Positions 23,311 to 42,263 of a DNA stretch of 42,265 nucleotides are shown in pieces. The first letter of the stretch is position 1; the number at the start of each line of letters is the position of its first letter. Below the pieces are notes generated by a model. The model was not told the DNA's origin. It saw nothing but the letters and a program-made list of their open reading frames with translations, and searched no databases. The position numbers were made by a program, and so were the translations under genes. This DNA is from a virus. The stretch is from the IMG/VR virus record IMGVR_UViG_3300025889_000243, positions 1 through 42,265 of that record; one strand, given 5' to 3'.

Positions 23311-23501
23311 TTCGAATCAGTTGCATAATTGTCACACATTAAAAAATTCAATTTGTCAAGGTGGTATTTTGACACGTTGCGAATCAGTTGCAAAAATGTC
23401 ACTGTTGCATTTATGTTACATTGTCACAAAAATATCACTGTTGCAGAATTATCACACTGTGGTAAAAATATCACTGTTGCAGAAATGTCACACTGTTGCA
23501 T
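23311..23501 (+). repeat. Iteron-like repeats (AAAAATRTCACTGTTGCA)
   Basis: A unit near AAAAATATCACTGTTGCA recurs at 23390-23410, 23427-23446, 23462-23482 and 23482-23501, with a degenerate copy at 23446-23462. Related GAATCAGTTGCA units lie at 23314 and 23381. Spacing is about 20-37 nt, all in one direction. The AT-rich setting beside the motif cluster suits an initiator-binding array or regulatory array. Confidence 0.7.
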
Positions 23502-23504
23502 TTA

Positions 23505-23648
23505 TACCCCACCGATGGAAAATGACCCCCCACCAGTGGAAATAGAGAGTCGACCCCCACCAGTGGAAAATGACCCCACCGATGGAAATAAAGAGTCAGA
23601 CCCCCACCGATGGAAAATGATTTTACTTGACCCCACCGATGGAAAATG
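23505..23648 (+). repeat. Cluster of six oriented CC-N6-GGAAA motifs
   Basis: Copies lie at 23505-23525, 23525-23545, 23552-23572, 23573-23593, 23600-23620 and 23629-23648. The units read CCCCACCGATGGAAAATGA or CCACCAGTGGAAATAGAG with small changes. They are the densest group of a motif found about 28 times in the window. They have mosaic halves: CGAT or CAGT before GG, and AAAATGA or AAATAAAGAG after it. Confidence 0.85.
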
Positions 23649-33894: not shown

Positions 33895-34066
33895 TATAAT
33901 CGTAAGGTATTTTAATTATTTAAAACATTGGAGACTTCATAGGGAAACTATAAAACAGTTAAATAAGCTATCTGATAGGGATCTAAATGATATAGGTCTA
34001 TATAGAGGTGACATAGATAGTATGATATGGTTAGATGAAGACAGAAAAAAAAGGGGCAAAAAATGA
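33884..34066 (+). CDS. DUF1127 protein
   Basis: I choose the ATG at 33884 (MKDNIIVRYFNYLKHWRLHR), which follows GGAGGGTCTGGAG; the longer frame from a GTG at 33863 lacks support. The 60-residue protein carries TIKQLNKLSDRDLNDIGLYR, the DUF1127 pattern. DUF1127 proteins are small, frequent in alphaproteobacteria, and some bind RNA and affect stress or small-RNA turnover. Seeing one between mazG and the reductase suggests a captured host regulator. Function here is unknown. Confidence 0.8.
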   Translation: MKDNIIVRYFNYLKHWRLHRETIKQLNKLSDRDLNDIGLYRGDIDSMIWLDEDRKKRGKK

Positions 34067-36027
34067 ACAACTACTTACCAACAGATTACCAAGCATTTAT
34101 ACATACATCAAGATATGCTAGATGGTTAGAAGATGAAAACAGAAGAGAGACTTGGCCTGAGACAGTGAGTAGGTATATGTCTAATGTTATATTACCTAAA
34201 CTAAGTGCATCACACCCAGAGATAAAAAAGATAGAGGAGATGATTCTTAATTTAGATGTAATGCCATCTATGAGAGCTTTAATGACAGCAGGTTCTGCCG
34301 CTAACAGAGACAACACTTGTATGTATAACTGTAGTTATCTACCAGTAGATGACCCTAAAGCGTTTGATGAAGCTATGTATATACTTCTGTGTGGTACAGG
34401 TGTAGGGTTTTCTGTAGAGAGTGACTTCGTAAACAAACTACCTGAGATACCAGAACTACAAGAAAGTGATTTAGTTATTAAGGTTAAAGATAGTAAAGAG
34501 GGGTGGGCTAAAGCTCTTAGACAGGTTGTAGCACTGCTATACGCAGGTGAGATACCACAATGGGATGTATCTTTAGTTAGACCTGCTGGAGCTAGGCTTA
34601 AGACATTTGGTGGTAGAGCTTCTGGACCTGCCCCTCTCGTGGACTTATTTAACTTTACATTAGCTACATTTAAATCTGCACAAGGTAGGAAACTTGCACC
34701 TATAGAGTGTCACGATCTTATGTGTAAGATAGGAGAGATTGTTGTTGTAGGTGGTGTTAGACGTTCAGCTATGATTTCACTGTCTAATTTAGATGATGAC
34801 AGAATGAGACACGCTAAGTCAGGTTCATGGTATGATAGCACACCCTATAGAGCATTAGCTAACAACTCAGTATGTTACACTGAAAAACCTGCAATGGAAA
34901 CTTTTATGCGTGAGTGGCTTGCTCTGGTAGAAAGTAAGTCAGGTGAACGTGGTGTGTTTAATAGACAGGCTTGTAAGGATGTAGCTAAACGTAATGGTAG
35001 ACGTAACCCAGAGTTTGAGTTTGGAACTAACCCCTGTAGCGAAATTAGCTTAAGACCACATGAGTTCTGTAATCTAAGTGAAGTAGTTGTTAGAGCTACA
35101 GATGATATAAATTCATTAGTTGAAAAGGTTAAGATAGCTACTATAATAGGAACTATACAATCTAGTTACACCAAGTTTCCTTACTTACGTAAAGTATGGG
35201 CTAATAACTGTGAAGAGGAGAGACTTCTGGGAGTCAGCTTAACTGGCATTATGGACAACCCACTTATGACTAAAGCCAACTCAGGACTAGATAAAACCTT
35301 AGATACACTAAGGCAAGTATCTATAGACACTAACAAGGAGTGGTCTAGTATTTTAGGAATACAACAGTCTACTGCTACTACTTGTGTAAAACCTAGTGGT
35401 ACAGTAAGTCAAATGGTTGATAGTGCGTCAGGTATTCATGCTAGGCATAGTCCTTACTATATTAGAACTGTAAGAGGAGACAACAAAGACCCACTAACTA
35501 AGTTTATGGTAGATCAAGGTATACCTTCTGAGCCTTGTGCAATGAAACCAGATAATACTACAGTGTTTAGCTTTCCTGTTAAGTCTCCTGATAACTCTGT
35601 ATTTAGAGATGACATGACTGCTATTGAGCAACTAGAGTTGTGGTTAACTTATCAAAGGCATTGGTGTGAACATAAACCCAGTATAACAGTTAGTGTTAAA
35701 GAAGAGGAGTGGCTAGAGGTAGGTTCTTTTGTCTATAAACATTTTGATGAGATGAGCGGTGTGTCCTTCTTACCTTATGTAGATCACTCTTATGTTCAAG
35801 CACCTTATCAAGAGGTAGAAGCTGAAGGTCCTCTTAAAGTTGTTGTGTCTGAGTTTGACGATTCTATTACAGAAAGGCATCATACATACGAAAGTTTATT
35901 ATCTATTATGCCTAGTAAGATTGACTGGTCTAAACTATCTGATTTTGAAGTAGAGGACACAACTAGATCAAGTCAAACCTTTGCTTGTACAGGAGAAGTG
36001 TGTGAAATGGTAGATATTAGTTCATAG
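34063..36027 (+). CDS. nrdJ: Adenosylcobalamin-dependent ribonucleotide reductase (class II)
   Basis: The 654-residue protein resembles monomeric class II reductases. It has redox Cys C90 (MYNCSYLP), the FGTNPCSE loop with thiyl C326 and E328, C337 eleven residues on, and the C-terminal shuttle pair C642/C647 (CTGEVC), the same spacing as in the Lactobacillus enzyme. It makes deoxynucleotides, needs vitamin B12 and needs no oxygen. With MazG and the DUF3310 gene it forms the nucleotide-supply block. It overlaps the DUF1127 stop by 4 nt. Confidence 0.93.
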   Translation: MNNYLPTDYQAFIHTSRYARWLEDENRRETWPETVSRYMSNVILPKLSASHPEIKKIEEMILNLDVMPSMRALMTAGSAANRDNTCMYNCSYLPVDDPKAFDEAMYILLCGTGVGFSVESDFVNKLPEIPELQESDLVIKVKDSKEGWAKALRQVVALLYAGEIPQWDVSLVRPAGARLKTFGGRASGPAPLVDLFNFTLATFKSAQGRKLAPIECHDLMCKIGEIVVVGGVRRSAMISLSNLDDDRMRHAKSGSWYDSTPYRALANNSVCYTEKPAMETFMREWLALVESKSGERGVFNRQACKDVAKRNGRRNPEFEFGTNPCSEISLRPHEFCNLSEVVVRATDDINSLVEKVKIATIIGTIQSSYTKFPYLRKVWANNCEEERLLGVSLTGIMDNPLMTKANSGLDKTLDTLRQVSIDTNKEWSSILGIQQSTATTCVKPSGTVSQMVDSASGIHARHSPYYIRTVRGDNKDPLTKFMVDQGIPSEPCAMKPDNTTVFSFPVKSPDNSVFRDDMTAIEQLELWLTYQRHWCEHKPSITVSVKEEEWLEVGSFVYKHFDEMSGVSFLPYVDHSYVQAPYQEVEAEGPLKVVVSEFDDSITERHHTYESLLSIMPSKIDWSKLSDFEVEDTTRSSQTFACTGEVCEMVDISS

Positions 36028-36439: not shown

Positions 36440-36814
36440 TTAAGGGTATTTTTTCCAGTTTAACTCCCAGTGAGGTCCATCTGGAAAGCTCTTCCAGTCA
36501 CCACCCCAATCAATACTAACCTTAAGTTCTTTTGCGGCCTTCTTCATAGCCTTCTCTATAGGGTCAAAGTCTTCCCATTCCCAAGAGATAGGCCAAGGTG
36601 CTATATCAACAGCATGACCTGTTAGGTGTCTTGAGTTCATTGTGGTGCTTTTACCAGTCTTAACAAGCTCTCTTTGCCTATCAATATTTCTAACACCCTC
36701 AATTACAGTGAAGTCTCTTTCAGTAATCTCTATCGCTCTTTGTATTACATCCTGTAGATCTGGATTAACACCTGATAGATTTTGTAGACTTCTTTGTCCT
36801 AACTCGTATCCCAT
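36440..36814 (-). CDS. M15-family peptidase endolysin
   Basis: The 124-residue protein has SRHLTGHAVDIAP (H63, D70) and DGPHWEL (H115), the zinc site of VanY/L-alanyl-D-glutamate peptidases used as phage endolysins. It has no signal peptide, so export needs the holin gene that precedes it. Its ATG overlaps the holin stop (TAATG). It cleaves the peptide bridges of the host wall at lysis. Confidence 0.93.
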   Translation of the reverse strand: MGYELGQRSLQNLSGVNPDLQDVIQRAIEITERDFTVIEGVRNIDRQRELVKTGKSTTMNSRHLTGHAVDIAPWPISWEWEDFDPIEKAMKKAAKELKVSIDWGGDWKSFPDGPHWELNWKKYP

Positions 36815-37179
36815 TATTTCTTTCCTCCGAATATTTTAGTTGCAGATCTTATACCAAAACTTGCGGCTATAACTACACCAAGGGAATATGTGTACCACTG
36901 AGGAGCTTGACCTAAAGCAATAAACCCTGCTTCTGCAATATCTCTACCCCAGTCACCACAGAAACTTAAAATAAATGGTCCCGACAAAAGTAGAACTAGA
37001 TATTCGTCTTTCCATGAGCTTTGTGTAGCTTTCATAGCTTCAAGATCCCAGTCAATTTCTCCTGTAGCAATCTTTAGATCTTTGGTAGCTTTTGCTTTCT
37101 GAGCGGCTGTTTTACCTTCGATCCAAGAACCTGCTAGTCCTGCAACTGGTCCAACTATGTTTCCTAATATACCCAACAT
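36814..37179 (-). CDS. Holin (DUF3154-like, 3TM superfamily)
   Basis: The 121-residue protein begins MLGILGNIVGPVAGLAGSWI, has a charged helix (AAQKAKATKDLKIATGEIDW), then WKDEYLVLLLSGPFILSFCG and a third hydrophobic segment YSLGVVIAASFGI, ending in basic KIFGGKK. The WKDEY-hydrophobic pattern is typical of DUF3154 holins. It is placed directly before the endolysin and would open the inner membrane to it. Confidence 0.82.
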   Translation of the reverse strand: MLGILGNIVGPVAGLAGSWIEGKTAAQKAKATKDLKIATGEIDWDLEAMKATQSSWKDEYLVLLLSGPFILSFCGDWGRDIAEAGFIALGQAPQWYTYSLGVVIAASFGIRSATKIFGGKK

Positions 37180-37807: not shown

Positions 37808-38143
37808 TTATTTATTTTGACTTGTTTTAGTTTTACTTAAAGCTGTAGCACCCATGAAACCTAGTACTACACCCATCTGTGCTACAAGAAAGGTATTAAG
37901 AAAACCCGATGCTGATTCCATTCGAGGTATATTAATAATGGGTGTAAGTAATATTATAACTGTAACTATTGTTGTACCCATAGCTAACCAAGCCATAGTA
38001 CGTTGTGTATCCATCATCTTGTCTTCATTTTCTAAACGAATCCATCTTTCGTGACGGTCTAATTCTTCATCAGTAATAACACCATCACCATTTGAATCGG
38101 CTACGGCATATTTACTATCTACTTGTAATTTTTTAGGTGACAT
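37808..38143 (-). CDS. EF-hand plus two-TM membrane protein
   Basis: The 111-residue protein has an EF-hand-like calcium loop (DSNGDGVITDEEL at about 17-29), a charged helix, and two membrane helices (TMAWLAMGTTIVTVIILLTP; FLVAQMGVVLGFMGATAL). A similar layout is, from memory, present in marine T4-like phages. It may sense calcium or anchor a complex in the membrane. It overlaps the next upstream gene by 11 nt. Confidence 0.7.
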   Translation of the reverse strand: MSPKKLQVDSKYAVADSNGDGVITDEELDRHERWIRLENEDKMMDTQRTMAWLAMGTTIVTVIILLTPIINIPRMESASGFLNTFLVAQMGVVLGFMGATALSKTKTSQNK

Positions 38144-38351: not shown

Positions 38352-38551
38352 TATACTTCTTCTCCATAAGGATTAAACTTAAAGCACTTAGCTTTTACAT
38401 AGTGGCCTGTAGTCAGTAAACTTTTTGCCATAGGTATTATTTGTTCTTCACATTGTATTTCTGACTGAAACAAGTGATCTCTTCGTACCATTACATCACA
38501 TGAAGTAGCGTCTGTAGGTACTGCACAGTATAGTATTATAGCGAGAAACAT
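38351..38551 (-). CDS. Small exported Cys-containing protein
   Basis: The 66-residue protein begins with a short hydrophobic export signal (MFLAIILYCAVPTDA) followed by SCDVMVRRDHLFQSEIQCEE and KAKCFKFNPYGEEV. Three Cys in the mature part could form a disulfide in the periplasm. Start and stop both overlap neighbours (TAATG). No family name known; a similar protein is, from memory, in marine cyanophages. Confidence 0.62.
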   Translation of the reverse strand: MFLAIILYCAVPTDATSCDVMVRRDHLFQSEIQCEEQIIPMAKSLLTTGHYVKAKCFKFNPYGEEV

Positions 38552-39054
38552 TAGTTTCCAACCAGAGGGTTATCCAAAGCCTCCTGTAGTCTTGTACCTA
38601 ATCTCTCTTCTAGTTTAGTCATAGCTTCTTCTATACGACTTTCTGTTTCTCGCATTGTATCTCGTACATCTTTTTCTGTCTCACGATTTAGTGCTTCTAC
38701 TTCTCGCATAGATGCTATTGTATCTTTTTGTAACTGGTTCATCTCATCAATAGCATTCTGAACTTCGTTACGTATCTTATCTACATGACCTTCTACAGTC
38801 ATTATATCTTCACGTAGATTGTTTTTAATATCACGAGTGTAGTCTATAGCTTCATCTAGTTTAGTCTGTGTTAAAGTATTCTGAGCTGTTATTGTGTCTA
38901 CATCTATCTCTTGGATAATCTCTTTCATGTCCATGTAGTCTTTATAGAACTCAAAGCCGCCCCACAGACCACCACCAAGTGCCGAAACGATTGGTACGAG
39001 TAGCATGAGTCTGCCACCTTTTATCTTTGCACCTGCTATCTCTACCTCTGCCAT
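38551..39054 (-). CDS. Membrane-anchored coiled-coil protein (spanin-like layout)
   Basis: The 167-residue protein has one membrane segment (RLMLLVPIVSALGGGLWGGF, about 15-34) and then a long acidic coiled coil to the end (LDEAIDYTRDIKNNLREDIM, EKDVRDTMRETESRIEEAMT). This is the shape of an i-spanin or of a periplasmic tether. No lipoprotein o-spanin is obvious next to it. It is part of the exported-protein cluster. Confidence 0.62.
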   Translation of the reverse strand: MAEVEIAGAKIKGGRLMLLVPIVSALGGGLWGGFEFYKDYMDMKEIIQEIDVDTITAQNTLTQTKLDEAIDYTRDIKNNLREDIMTVEGHVDKIRNEVQNAIDEMNQLQKDTIASMREVEALNRETEKDVRDTMRETESRIEEAMTKLEERLGTRLQEALDNPLVGN

Positions 39055-39062
39055 ACTACACC

Positions 39063-39464
39063 TTAGTTTTCAAATGAGAGACTTCTTAACTGATTAATCT
39101 CTTGCTGTAACTTCATTACTTCTAGTTCTTTTTTCTGTAACTCTAACTCATACAGTCTGTTACAATCTATTCTTGACTTAACTCTTTTACCTAACGGTAT
39201 TATTATTCTACTGTAAACACCTATATCACCTGTCTTAGTATTATCTGTAGATATAGTTCCACCCTGTATTATGCCTGTAACTCCAAACTCCCACTGTGTA
39301 GCTGATCCTATAGCATTACTGCAATCTAATTCTCCTGCCCTAAACTTGTCAGCTTGGTAACTCATACTAGAATTAGGAAGAGATAAACTTAATGAGTTAG
39401 ACGTTGAGTCTGCTAAACTAAAGTTATAACAACAACAAAGAATTATAATAAGAAGAACTCTCAT
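39063..39464 (-). CDS. Exported protein with C-terminal coiled coil
   Basis: The 133-residue protein has a signal sequence (MRVLLIIILCCCYNFSLADS), a conserved-looking middle (FRAGELDCSNAIGSATQWEF, GDIGVYSRIIIPLGKRVKSR, IDCNRLYEL) with two Cys, and a coiled coil end (LELQKKELEVMKLQQEINQL). From memory the middle is shared with marine T4-like phages. The two Cys likely form a disulfide. It overlaps the chaperone-like gene by 4 nt. Confidence 0.65.
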   Translation of the reverse strand: MRVLLIIILCCCYNFSLADSTSNSLSLSLPNSSMSYQADKFRAGELDCSNAIGSATQWEFGVTGIIQGGTISTDNTKTGDIGVYSRIIIPLGKRVKSRIDCNRLYELELQKKELEVMKLQQEINQLRSLSFEN

Positions 39465-39853
39465 TGTGTTTTCTTTATCTTACTACATATCCTAGAAGAC
39501 ACTAAAGTAGCTTGTTTATTACTCTTAAATACTTTTGACTCAGTGCATATGTATACAGCTTTATCTAAGTCGTTAGATCTTATGTAAACATCAAATAGTT
39601 TTCTTTTATTATGTTTTACCTGTATTACTTTTGAAGTAGAAGCAAAAGGTAAAGGTTTCCAATCATCTGTATAGACTTGTATAGAATAGTACTCTATACC
39701 TTCCCTTCTATTGAAGAGCTTCATTTTAGTTACGTGTACACCATCTATGTAAGATGACTTTAATGTCGGATAAGTCGGGGTCATTTCATGTGCGTTACTA
39801 TGAAGGCTTAAACATGAAAGAAAGGCCAACGCTAATGTTACTTGGCGATACAT
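39461..39853 (-). CDS. Exported PapD-like chaperone candidate
   Basis: The 130-residue protein has a signal peptide (MYRQVTLALAFLSCLSLHSN, then AH). The mature part reads TPTYPTLKSSYIDGVHVTKM, KLFNRREGIEYYSIQVYTDD, WKPLP and KVIQVKHNKRKLFDVYIRSN, which resembles the first Ig-like domain of PapD-type periplasmic chaperones (strands, KLFNRR, then an edge strand). Two Cys near the end could pair. It directly follows a pilin-like gene. The chaperone call is an inference from pattern and place. Confidence 0.5.
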   Translation of the reverse strand: MYRQVTLALAFLSCLSLHSNAHEMTPTYPTLKSSYIDGVHVTKMKLFNRREGIEYYSIQVYTDDWKPLPFASTSKVIQVKHNKRKLFDVYIRSNDLDKAVYICTESKVFKSNKQATLVSSRICSKIKKTQ

Positions 39854-40335
39854 TCCGCTACTATTAAAGCTGTATAATTACCTGCTGGTAATGCTTTTGT
39901 TGACCCATAACTTGCAGTAGATTTTACAGTAAACCATGTAGAACCTGCTAATGTCATATTAAACTCTGTAACATTGTTATATGTAACTTTAGCCGCTTCA
40001 TAAGCTGACATACCTGCTACACCTACTTGACCTACAATAGTACTTCCTGTCCAAGCTACTGCATCAGTCAGTGTAGGGCTAGATGAAAAGCTGTTAGGAT
40101 GTGTAAACTTTGTCTTATAATAGTCTGCTTGTGCTACATCAACTCTAATAGAAGCATGAACACCTCCATCAGAAGATTCTGTACTAAGTTTGTAAGGTAA
40201 TGGATGTCCATAAACACCATTAGTTTCAGTCCATATAGAACACTTAGGTTCTACTACACCATTAATAGGTGAGTCAACTGCCATTGCAGAGGTAGCTGAC
40301 ATTAGTAATGCTATCGTTGCTAATCTCTTAATCAT
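39838..40335 (-). CDS. Exported pilin-like / SCPU-like protein
   Basis: The 165-residue protein has a signal peptide (MIKRLATIALLMSATSAMAV), then GVVEPKCSIWTETNGVYGHP and a strand-rich body ending LPAGNYTALIVAECIAK, with one Cys near each end. This is the layout of chaperone-usher pilins and spore-coat-U-like proteins: an N-terminal Cys strand and a final YTALIV strand. It overlaps the chaperone-like gene. It may form or decorate a surface structure; no usher gene is present. Confidence 0.5.
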   Translation of the reverse strand: MIKRLATIALLMSATSAMAVDSPINGVVEPKCSIWTETNGVYGHPLPYKLSTESSDGGVHASIRVDVAQADYYKTKFTHPNSFSSSPTLTDAVAWTGSTIVGQVGVAGMSAYEAAKVTYNNVTEFNMTLAGSTWFTVKSTASYGSTKALPAGNYTALIVAECIAK

Positions 40336-40346
40336 AATATCTCCGA

Positions 40347-41273
40347 TTATTTATCATATTGAGAACGTACTATTGTTCTATGTAGTTTATCTTGTGCTAA
40401 ATTTCTTAATGCTTTAGTATTATCTTTTATTTCTGCGTCTTTTAATTCTATACTATCTTCGTAAGTACCACCTTCTATAGTTGCACCATAGTAACTATCT
40501 AGTGTGCCTGTAGAAGCTAACTGTTGCATCATAGCAAGTTGTTGCATTGGGTTAGCTATTTGTTCTGCCGCTCCAGCTACAGATAAAGCTCTCTCCATCT
40601 TTAACTCTTCTTGTTCTTCCTCTTTAGCCTTCTCTTCTTTCTTAGCTTCTTCTTCTTTCTGTTCAGCCTTACGATCTAATTGAAACTTTACCCATTCATC
40701 ATAATATGGATCATCTATATCAGGTTCATTATCTATTAAGTTGTTATCTAAAAGGTATTTATATAAAGCACTCTCATAGTCTGGACAGCTAGGATCTGCT
40801 AACGGTATAAAGCAAGGATCAAATCTGTAGTTATATGCTACAATAACATCACTGAGTGTTGCATCTCCTGTTACGCCTATACTTCCATCACCCCAACGAG
40901 TTCCTAAAGAAGGTGTAACAACATCAAATCCTATCTTAGTATTACTAGGTAGTTGATCCCAGTTATCATGTCTTTCGTATATGTTACCTGACCCACTAGC
41001 ATTCTTATTAACTATAGAAACTGTAGCATCTGCACTTGATTCTTTAGTGATTGTATACTTATGAAAGATTCCCTGTACTTCTAAACCTGCTTCTGGAGGA
41101 AGTATTTTTGACATATCCCAAGTATTTACATACTTAGCTACATTATCTGTTCTTCCATATAGTAGCTCAGAGGATAAATAAGAGGGCAAGCAACAGCCCA
41201 CCAACAGCACCAGCACCTGTAGCTGTACTCTTCGTATCTTCATCCCATTCTTCTTTCTTACCTGTCTTAGCAT
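40347..41273 (-). CDS. Exported protein with Glu/Lys coiled coil
   Basis: The frame gives up to 308 residues. The start is uncertain; MKIRRVQLQVLVLLVGCCLP (residue 11) would be a signal or lipoprotein-like start. The mature part has LLYGRTDNVAKYVNTWDMSK, ILPPEAGLEVQGIF, DPCFIPLADPSCPDY and then a Glu/Lys coiled coil (KAEQKEEEAKKEEKAKEEEQ). I recall very similar proteins in marine cyanophages without function. The first third overlaps the preceding gene by about 100 nt in another frame. Confidence 0.62.
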   Translation of the reverse strand: MLRQVRKKNGMKIRRVQLQVLVLLVGCCLPSYLSSELLYGRTDNVAKYVNTWDMSKILPPEAGLEVQGIFHKYTITKESSADATVSIVNKNASGSGNIYERHDNWDQLPSNTKIGFDVVTPSLGTRWGDGSIGVTGDATLSDVIVAYNYRFDPCFIPLADPSCPDYESALYKYLLDNNLIDNEPDIDDPYYDEWVKFQLDRKAEQKEEEAKKEEKAKEEEQEELKMERALSVAGAAEQIANPMQQLAMMQQLASTGTLDSYYGATIEGGTYEDSIELKDAEIKDNTKALRNLAQDKLHRTIVRSQYDK

Positions 41274-41769
41274 CAGGTATTAGATGAGGGTTATTGTTCC
41301 ATGCGTCTTTAGCTGGCTGACCTACAAGACCATCAAATGGACATGGTGTTCCAGCATTCATCATACTTTCAAATACTCTTTTGTCTTGGCAGAGTACAGA
41401 TACTGCCGCAACCTTCATTCCCATATCATAGAGAACTTTAGCGTTCTTCAGTCTTTCACAGTTCATATCTCTAGTTGTAACACCTGCTGATATACCTAGT
41501 ATCTGTGTCTGTACTGCACCTGACACACCTACTGTACATAAATCTGAGTTAGAGTTATTAATTGTAGGTGACATAGCTGAAGGTGGAGGTGACTTAACTG
41601 TAGTTTCTGATGTTAAATTAGAGTTAACTGTAGAGTTTGTATTACTGTTAGTCTCTATACAGTTAGCATTAGTAGCACTGTCACAACCTTCAGCATATAC
41701 TTGTTTAGCCATCATTAACATAAAAACTACAAGTATTGCTATTCCTGTATATATAAAAAATGATTTCAT
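41167..41769 (-). CDS. Exported Asn/Ser/Thr-rich protein with two hydrophobic ends
   Basis: The 200-residue protein has an N-terminal signal or anchor (MKSFFIYTGIAILVVFMLMM), an Asn/Ser/Thr-rich linker (ETNSNTNSTVNSNLTSETTV), a conserved-looking core (DLCTVGVSGAVQTQILGISA, NCERLKNAKVLYDMGMKVAA, MNAGTPCPFDG) and a C-terminal membrane segment (GAVGGLLLALLFIL). From memory the core is shared with marine T4-like phages. It could bridge the periplasm. Function unknown. Confidence 0.68.
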   Translation of the reverse strand: MKSFFIYTGIAILVVFMLMMAKQVYAEGCDSATNANCIETNSNTNSTVNSNLTSETTVKSPPPSAMSPTINNSNSDLCTVGVSGAVQTQILGISAGVTTRDMNCERLKNAKVLYDMGMKVAAVSVLCQDKRVFESMMNAGTPCPFDGLVGQPAKDAWNNNPHLIPDAKTGKKEEWDEDTKSTATGAGAVGGLLLALLFIL

Positions 41770-41772
41770 AAT

Positions 41773-42018
41773 TTACTTCCCATTAAAGCTCATCCATACA
41801 GCACCAGCTATAAATGTAAGTATAGCAACAGTTCCTATTTTAACAGTTGTATTCCATATAGACTTACGTGTATCTCTCCACGCATCCAGTAAAGATCTCA
41901 TTTCTTGTATGTCTTTAGCTGCATTTTCATCAGTTAAACCTATGCTCTCTAAAGCACGTTTAGCTGACCTATCTAGCATTGCCTCTAGTTCCTCTGGAGA
42001 AATCTTTAAGTTTGACAT
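41773..42018 (-). CDS. DUF6127-like protein with C-terminal TM
   Basis: The 81-residue protein starts MSNLKISPEELEAMLDRSAK, has DENAAKDIQEMRSLLDAWRD and ends with one membrane segment (VKIGTVAILTFIAGAVWMSF). This matches the DUF6127 pattern of small alphaproteobacterial phage proteins. A holin or inner-membrane anchor role is possible. It precedes the exported cluster. Confidence 0.72.
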   Translation of the reverse strand: MSNLKISPEELEAMLDRSAKRALESIGLTDENAAKDIQEMRSLLDAWRDTRKSIWNTTVKIGTVAILTFIAGAVWMSFNGK

Positions 42019-42092
42019 TTATTATACCCCTTCAGTGGAAATAAAGAGTACCCCCATCAGTGGAAAATGAGGGTACATCAGTGGAAAATGAT
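42019..42092 (+). repeat. Three oriented motif copies in a 74-nt gap
   Basis: Copies at 42026-42045 (CCCCTTCAGTGGAAATAAAG), 42049-42070 (CCCCCATCAGTGGAAAATGA) and 42073-42091 (GTACATCAGTGGAAAATGA) fill the gap between two leftward genes. They are on the + strand, antisense to those genes, and repeat the same two endings seen in the 23505-23648 cluster. Confidence 0.85.
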
Positions 42093-42263
42093 TTATTCTT
42101 CTTCTGTAGTTTCTTCTTTTTGTGGGCTTTCTATGTCTTGAATTAGCATATTTTCAAAACCCTTCTTGCCTACTTGTAGTTGATCGACATTAAATAAAGC
42201 ACTACCAATCTTACGATCTAAATCAACAATATGATTAACTATAGTTTTTTGCTTTTCAGTCAT
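42093..42263 (-). CDS. Small acidic protein at the right edge
   Basis: The 56-residue protein from the ATG at 42263 reads MTEKQKTIVNHIVDLDRKIG, then SALFNVDQLQVGKKGFENML and ends QKEETTEEE. It looks helical and ends acidic. The ribosome site is outside the window. I recall similar short proteins beside this exported cluster in marine phages. Function unknown. Confidence 0.65.
   Translation of the reverse strand: MTEKQKTIVNHIVDLDRKIGSALFNVDQLQVGKKGFENMLIQDIESPQKEETTEEE

Follow-up and report, generated by a model that had tools for sequence, protein, structure and literature searches.

A conserved six-gene block for exported proteins in tailed phages, with predicted chaperone-like and pilin-like members

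The window analysed here is the whole of a 42,265-base linear IMG/VR record (IMGVR_UViG_3300025889_000243). Its right-hand end carries eight successive leftward genes that a first-pass annotation, made without database searches, had described as an exported-protein module of unknown function. All eight open reading frames (ORFs) lie where they had been placed (38551-42263), and seven of them have a signal peptide or membrane segment (at least six had been claimed), the exception being a 56-residue gene. The conserved unit is smaller than the proposed eight-gene module: it comprises g200-g308-g165-g130-g133-g167 (38551-41769, minus strand), and the remaining two genes, g81 and g56, fall outside this fixed core.

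The first gene of the block, g200 (41167-41769, 200 amino acids), encodes a signal peptide, a Ser/Thr/Asn-rich stretch, a conserved Cys-rich domain and a C-terminal hydrophobic helix; its conserved motif is QTQILG...DMNCERLK...YDMGMKVAAVS...CQD...AGTPCP, and relatives occur in pelagiphages and CRP phages. Next comes g308 (40347-41273, 308 amino acids), with a probable start at an internal ATG (41243); its product has a signal peptide, a beta-type N-terminal half, an acidic coiled middle and a conserved C-terminus (H..MV.SQY). Three shorter genes with signal peptides follow: g165 (39838-40335, 165 amino acids; pilin-like predicted fold), g130 (39461-39853, 130 amino acids; single-domain PapD-like predicted chaperone fold) and g133 (39063-39464, 133 amino acids; phrog_37374, 2.4e-07). 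The g133 protein is Cys-paired and has two conserved strands forming a hairpin, a variable loop of 8-30 residues between them, and a coiled-coil-like C-terminus. The last gene, g167 (38551-39054, 167 amino acids; relatives in HTVC115P, CRP-207 and CRP-810), encodes an N-terminal membrane segment and a long coiled coil ending in a conserved NPL motif, with no Cys beyond the N-terminus. Post-signal cysteines are nearly always paired across the families: two in g165, g130 and g133, four or six in g200, usually two in g308 and none in g167. The paired cysteines and coiled coils that had been read in several of the proteins are thus present in five families and in g133 and g167, respectively. A paralogy between g133 and g200, which have alike Cys spacing, is unsupported, as hhalign aligned their signal peptides only.

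Two sets of loci were compiled, one by scanning viral contigs with g200 (598 relatives, 80 loci kept) and the other by scanning with g133 (80 further loci); genes were assigned by profile searches across all ORFs. This survey of gene neighbourhoods, which the first-pass annotation had called for, found the full six genes in 129 loci on 116 distinct contigs, collinear and on one strand in 129/129 cases. Within the first set, genes one to five of the block are contiguous, with gaps of -178 to +43 bases, and g167 is more loosely placed, shifted away by as much as 2 kb. In 128/128 loci g200 runs into the beginning of g308 (in the window at 41167-41273, in different frames), so that one stretch of DNA encodes both the C-terminal membrane helix of the g200 protein and the g308 signal peptide. 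A lysis-arm placement had also been proposed, and the block does usually lie near lysis genes; a recognisable one is found near g200 in 37 loci.

Many of the genes had been likened to genes grouped in marine T4-like phages. This likeness is real but too narrow. A T4-type Gp23 capsid gene is present on one module contig, UvsX in about eleven module loci and a gp41-like helicase in ten, and a further group of carriers has a terminase, a Phage_portal-type portal and a prohead protease. In the window itself the terminase matches Terminase_6, the portal matches Portal_Mu (Mu-like), and the nearest named relative at the DNA level is Roseobacter phage CRP-6, through terminase and portal only. Carriers of the block include T4-like contigs, the portal/prohead-protease lineage and a CRP-6-like virus. 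None of the named phages in GenBank (50,697 records), T4-like ones included, holds all six genes.

Outside viral and phage collections only contigs of metagenome-assembled genomes (MAGs) matched, no true cellular copy being found among them, and therefore the system looks virus-restricted. A g200 search of genome contigs gave nine MAG contigs, at least five of which have the whole module together with genes shared with phage contigs, and a g165 search of genome contigs gave no match. The g133 profile was also run against 296 genomes from the bacterial family to which one of these MAGs belongs, and it matched that MAG alone, on four contigs. Viral scans with the g133 proteins of Miami and of 1.081.O gave no further matches.

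It had been suggested that an intact module moves between phages with unrelated virions. This is borne out by the T4-like carriers, the prohead-protease lineage and the Mu-like portal of the window; the module, though, is a mosaic of two sub-modules, g200-g308-g167 and g165-g130-g133 (the latter called the trio below). Pelagiphages (HTVC023P, HTVC033P, HTVC115P, HTVC202P, Baldr and Mosig) and roseophages (CRP-207 and CRP-810) lack the trio but have g200, followed by a gene for an exported protein and by one for a g167-like membrane coiled coil with NPL at its end. The g167 link is supported by sequence in HTVC115P and the CRP phages, and in the other pelagiphages its basis is position, architecture and the NPL end. 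In HTVC115P a protein annotated as a toxin-activating lysine-acyltransferase is encoded close downstream of the g200-g308-g167 genes (record L005, 10285-10734).

Conversely, the trio alone, in the same order, is found in the T5-like Vibrio phages Thalassavirus (gp150-152), 51E28.4 and K251, downstream of tail-fibre-like genes. Hidden Markov model support there is about 1e-12 to 1e-15 for g133, 6.5e-7 to 1.3e-5 for g165 and 7e-7 to 2e-3 for g130. Thalassavirus gp150-152 constitute phrog_25895, phrog_25455 and phrog_37374, families listed with function unknown; the window trio proteins match them weakly, so that the families and order of g165, g130 and g133 are shared, whereas the Thalassavirus set is without g200, g308 and g167. 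In Thalassavirus the trio is followed by a small lipoprotein and then by holin and endolysin. This lipoprotein, gp153 (phrog_16916; record L107, 5287-5490), is possibly an o-spanin or a receptor-blocking lipoprotein, and similar lipoprotein-like ORFs are seen in 51E28.4 and K251.

A rearranged trio, consisting of a chaperone-like protein, g133 and a third exported protein, is probably present in Klebsiella jumbo phages, Erwinia phage pEp_SNUABM_01, Vibrio 2.275.O, D479 and 1.081.O, with strong sequence support for g133 only. In these Klebsiella, Erwinia and Vibrio jumbo or rv5-like phages it is located in accessory regions outside the lysis cassette, and in D479 it adjoins rIIA/rIIB. Matches to the Erwinia trio were found by tblastn in 204 phage records, most of which matched through one gene. 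In a KVP40-like genome the trio is inserted among genes with KVP40 matches, which suggests that it is a self-contained cassette. The main text of the phi-Kp24 paper has no mass spectrometry and does not mention gp270-272.

What might the trio do? Structure prediction, which the first-pass annotation had wanted for each mature protein, covered g130 and g165. The AlphaFold2 model of g130 has a predicted local distance difference test score (pLDDT) of 91.4, and 26 of its 30 top Foldseek matches in the PDB are chaperone-usher chaperones, FaeE, SafB, DraB, PapD, FimC and Caf1M among them, the remaining four being MSP-type domains. The protein has invariant cysteines (Cys103 and Cys123) within its last two strands; a Cys pair between the last two strands is a feature of FGL chaperones such as Caf1M. 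When the mature g130-family profile was aligned by hhalign with the N-domains of six E. coli chaperones, the alignment ran over 101 columns, near the full domain, with a score of 23.9; the best of 46 control families scored 22.0 over 15 columns. The C-terminal strand of Thalassavirus gp151 (AKVRLYWP) aligns with that of FimC (SRIKLYYRP). At the level of fold, then, g130 is predicted to be a one-domain PapD-like periplasmic chaperone. The g165 model (pLDDT 90.4) has invariant Cys32 and Cys162 and a low-confidence N-terminal segment ahead of Cys32. Its Foldseek matches in the PDB are headed by FimF, followed by the PapG pilin domain, CfaB, Caf1, FimG and CsuA/B, which places its predicted fold nearest to pilin subunits, an assignment weaker than that of g130. 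Since g130 points to chaperones and its neighbour g165 to pilins, the models would independently indicate two halves of one pathway.

Several observations weigh against this interpretation. The Foldseek template modelling (TM) scores of g165 are modest (about 0.36-0.48), and unrelated immunoglobulin (Ig)-like domains (SdrE/ClfB, AP2 mu) are also among its matches. Its mature N-terminal segment is short for a pilin donor strand, and hhalign of g165 with pilins, without signal peptides, gave 17.9 against 16.4 for the best control. Classical chaperones are two-domain proteins whereas g130 has a single domain, and no significant sequence match to chaperone-usher proteins was found in Pfam or the PDB. 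PDB sequence searches with all family profiles except that of g167 gave no match, as did a BFVD fold search with g165 below 1e-3. In the jumbo and rv5-like phages it is mainly position, export signals and Cys pairs that mark the two proteins as chaperone- and pilin-like. Sequence homology being weak, the pair is assigned as chaperone and pilin from the predicted folds, the gene order and the conservation of cysteines.

This leaves room for another explanation, namely that these are generic Ig-fold periplasmic or surface exclusion proteins that keep other phages out, forming no fibre and not truly pairing as chaperone and subunit. Ig folds are common, sequence homology to chaperone-usher proteins is at or slightly above control level, and an accessory placement, adjoining rIIA/rIIB in D479, would suit such proteins. 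We nevertheless consider it improbable, because the top fold match of g130 is specifically chaperone-type, the neighbouring g165 independently matches pilins, and the three genes of the trio strictly co-occur.

The predicted chaperone-like and pilin-like folds point instead to an assembled fibre or surface structure, and the envelope-spanning complex suggested earlier is plausible. We give about an even chance to the proposal that the module is an usher-less, phage-encoded envelope-assembly system related by fold to chaperone-usher pili; the exact use of such a system is less certain than the system itself. Its proteins would be made late, with the tail-fibre and lysis genes, and exported through the host Sec system. 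In the periplasm the PapD-like chaperone g130 would complete the fold of the pilin-like subunit g165; g133, with its disulfide-tied hairpin and coiled coil, may serve as outer-membrane exit or anchor in place of an usher (that its hairpin is an outer-membrane element is a guess), and g200, g308 and g167 could form a membrane-anchored periplasmic scaffold. The end product would be a fibre or coat on the surface or in the periplasm of the infected cell, and its most likely use a late surface change that blocks superinfection and re-adsorption of progeny, or that links cells. Polymerisation, the g133 and scaffold roles and the biological function are what we infer; gene-order conservation, export signals, Cys pairs, the predicted g130 and g165 folds and lysis-gene proximity are computed. 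A fuller picture is possible but more tentative: a virus-only, usher-less machine in which phage genes supply a pilin-like subunit, a PapD-like chaperone of one domain and, in g133, a miniature oligomeric outer-membrane platform. This machine would assemble a fibre or coat on the host as it dies, combine freely with a second envelope sub-module and spread among unrelated tailed phages.

The chaperone-usher pili (FimC/FimA-FimH, PapD, Caf1M/Caf1) resemble the module, at fold level, in having adjacent genes for a PapD-like chaperone and a pilin-like subunit exported through Sec. Unlike them, the phage module has a one-domain chaperone and the extra partners g133, g200, g308 and g167, looks virus-restricted and is without detectable sequence homology to them. 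An usher (PF00577) was above cut-off in none of 41 records, ten full named-phage records included, while the E. coli control was positive. The 770-819-residue product encoded upstream of the trio in Vibrio phages is not a canonical usher but a cytoplasmic-type phrog_10818 protein with no usher match. The type VIII secretion (curli) modules of pelagiphages are likewise exported multi-gene sets found across unrelated marine phage families, similar to the module in their ecology and with suggested roles in aggregation, exclusion or lysis (PMC9599517, PMC7029224, PMC9004378). Their gene set is different, however, and a curli variant is ruled out for the present module since CsgG was found in 0/36 related records (controls positive).

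The main competing explanation is a lysis module, in which an inner-to-outer-membrane complex, with g167 on the inner side and g133 on the outer, breaks the outer membrane after endolysin action and so replaces spanins. The module has holin and endolysin genes as its neighbours in the window, Thalassavirus and many other loci, the 37 g200 loci noted above have a recognisable lysis gene nearby, and g200 relatives adjoin endolysin or lysis genes in HTVC023P, HTVC033P and ctXG6705. Two-component spanins (Rz/Rz1) resemble g167, which is likewise encoded near holin and endolysin and has an N-terminal anchor and a periplasmic coiled coil. No i-spanin of the Rz family (PF03245), the type covered by the search, was found in the 36 related records or the window (positive controls matched); this absence says little because spanins are highly diverse. 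The module differs from such spanins in having six genes rather than two and apparently no conserved lipoprotein partner (window g308 has LVGC ahead of its mature start, which is not kept across the g308 family, and in Thalassavirus the lipoprotein gp153 adjoins the trio). Against a lysis role, Thalassavirus has this separate small lipoprotein as a possible o-spanin, nothing in lysis obviously calls for a chaperone- and pilin-like pair, and the trio lies outside the lysis cassette in the jumbo and rv5-like phages. Late position and lysis-gene proximity fit either outer-membrane rupture or surface remodelling before release. Accessory placement in the jumbo and KVP40-like phages, and beside rIIA/rIIB in D479, is easier to reconcile with exclusion, or with another benefit that the phage can do without, than with a lysis step that is essential. 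We therefore favour a chaperone-subunit fibre or coat, and regard the lysis module as unlikely, though a serious contender.

Could these simply be ordinary virion parts, such as tail-tip or fibre accessories? The genes belong to the late region and adjoin tail-fibre genes. In the window, the left-end ORF (2-1066) is the truncated start of a large tail-fibre gene cut by the window edge, and in a related contig (L014) the tail-fibre gene is directly upstream of g81 and the module, which is therefore placed between tail fibre and lysis genes. Yet nearly all members have signal peptides and paired cysteines, the module is carried with unrelated virions and none of its proteins convincingly matches a structural PHROG, making this explanation very unlikely.

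Pilus-type chaperone-subunit assembly is known from bacteria, and in the open-access literature searched we found no report of it from a phage. If our proposal is true, phage genes of unknown function that are widespread (in T5-like, T4-like, jumbo and marine phages) would acquire a role open to testing, the system would offer a minimal alternative to an 800-residue usher, and exclusion, cell linking or outer-membrane rupture might proceed by a new route. Some carriers infect the culturable hosts Vibrio harveyi and Vibrio campbellii, which makes bench tests of the proposal feasible.

The neighbouring genes g111, g121, g124, g81 and g56 are on the minus strand. Downstream of g167 lies g111 (37808-38143), with an EF-hand-like motif and two membrane helices (CRP-207 relative, 4.8e-46); it is a frequent companion of the module (69 loci) and possibly a Ca-linked holin. 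Beyond it are g121 (36814-37179; phrog_2524, a family of unassigned function), a small membrane protein gene that adjoins the endolysin and is a holin candidate, and the peptidase M15 endolysin gene g124 (36440-36814; PF13539, 3e-12; phrog_465, 2.6e-61). Upstream, g81 (41773-42018, 81 amino acids), a DUF6127 membrane protein gene frequent in roseophages (PF19622, 1.5e-20), and g56 (42093-42263, 56 amino acids; phrog_21153), a small cytoplasmic-type protein gene, belong to a smaller set of roseophage-like genomes. A class II (B12-dependent) ribonucleotide reductase is encoded at 34063-36027. The repeat TTTCCACTGATGGGGGT is present in three copies at 42030-42087, just upstream of the module and with one copy within a terminator-like hairpin, and in several related copies near 23.5 kb (about 23500-23640); its eight matches, against 0.6 expected, make it a possible promoter or regulatory element.

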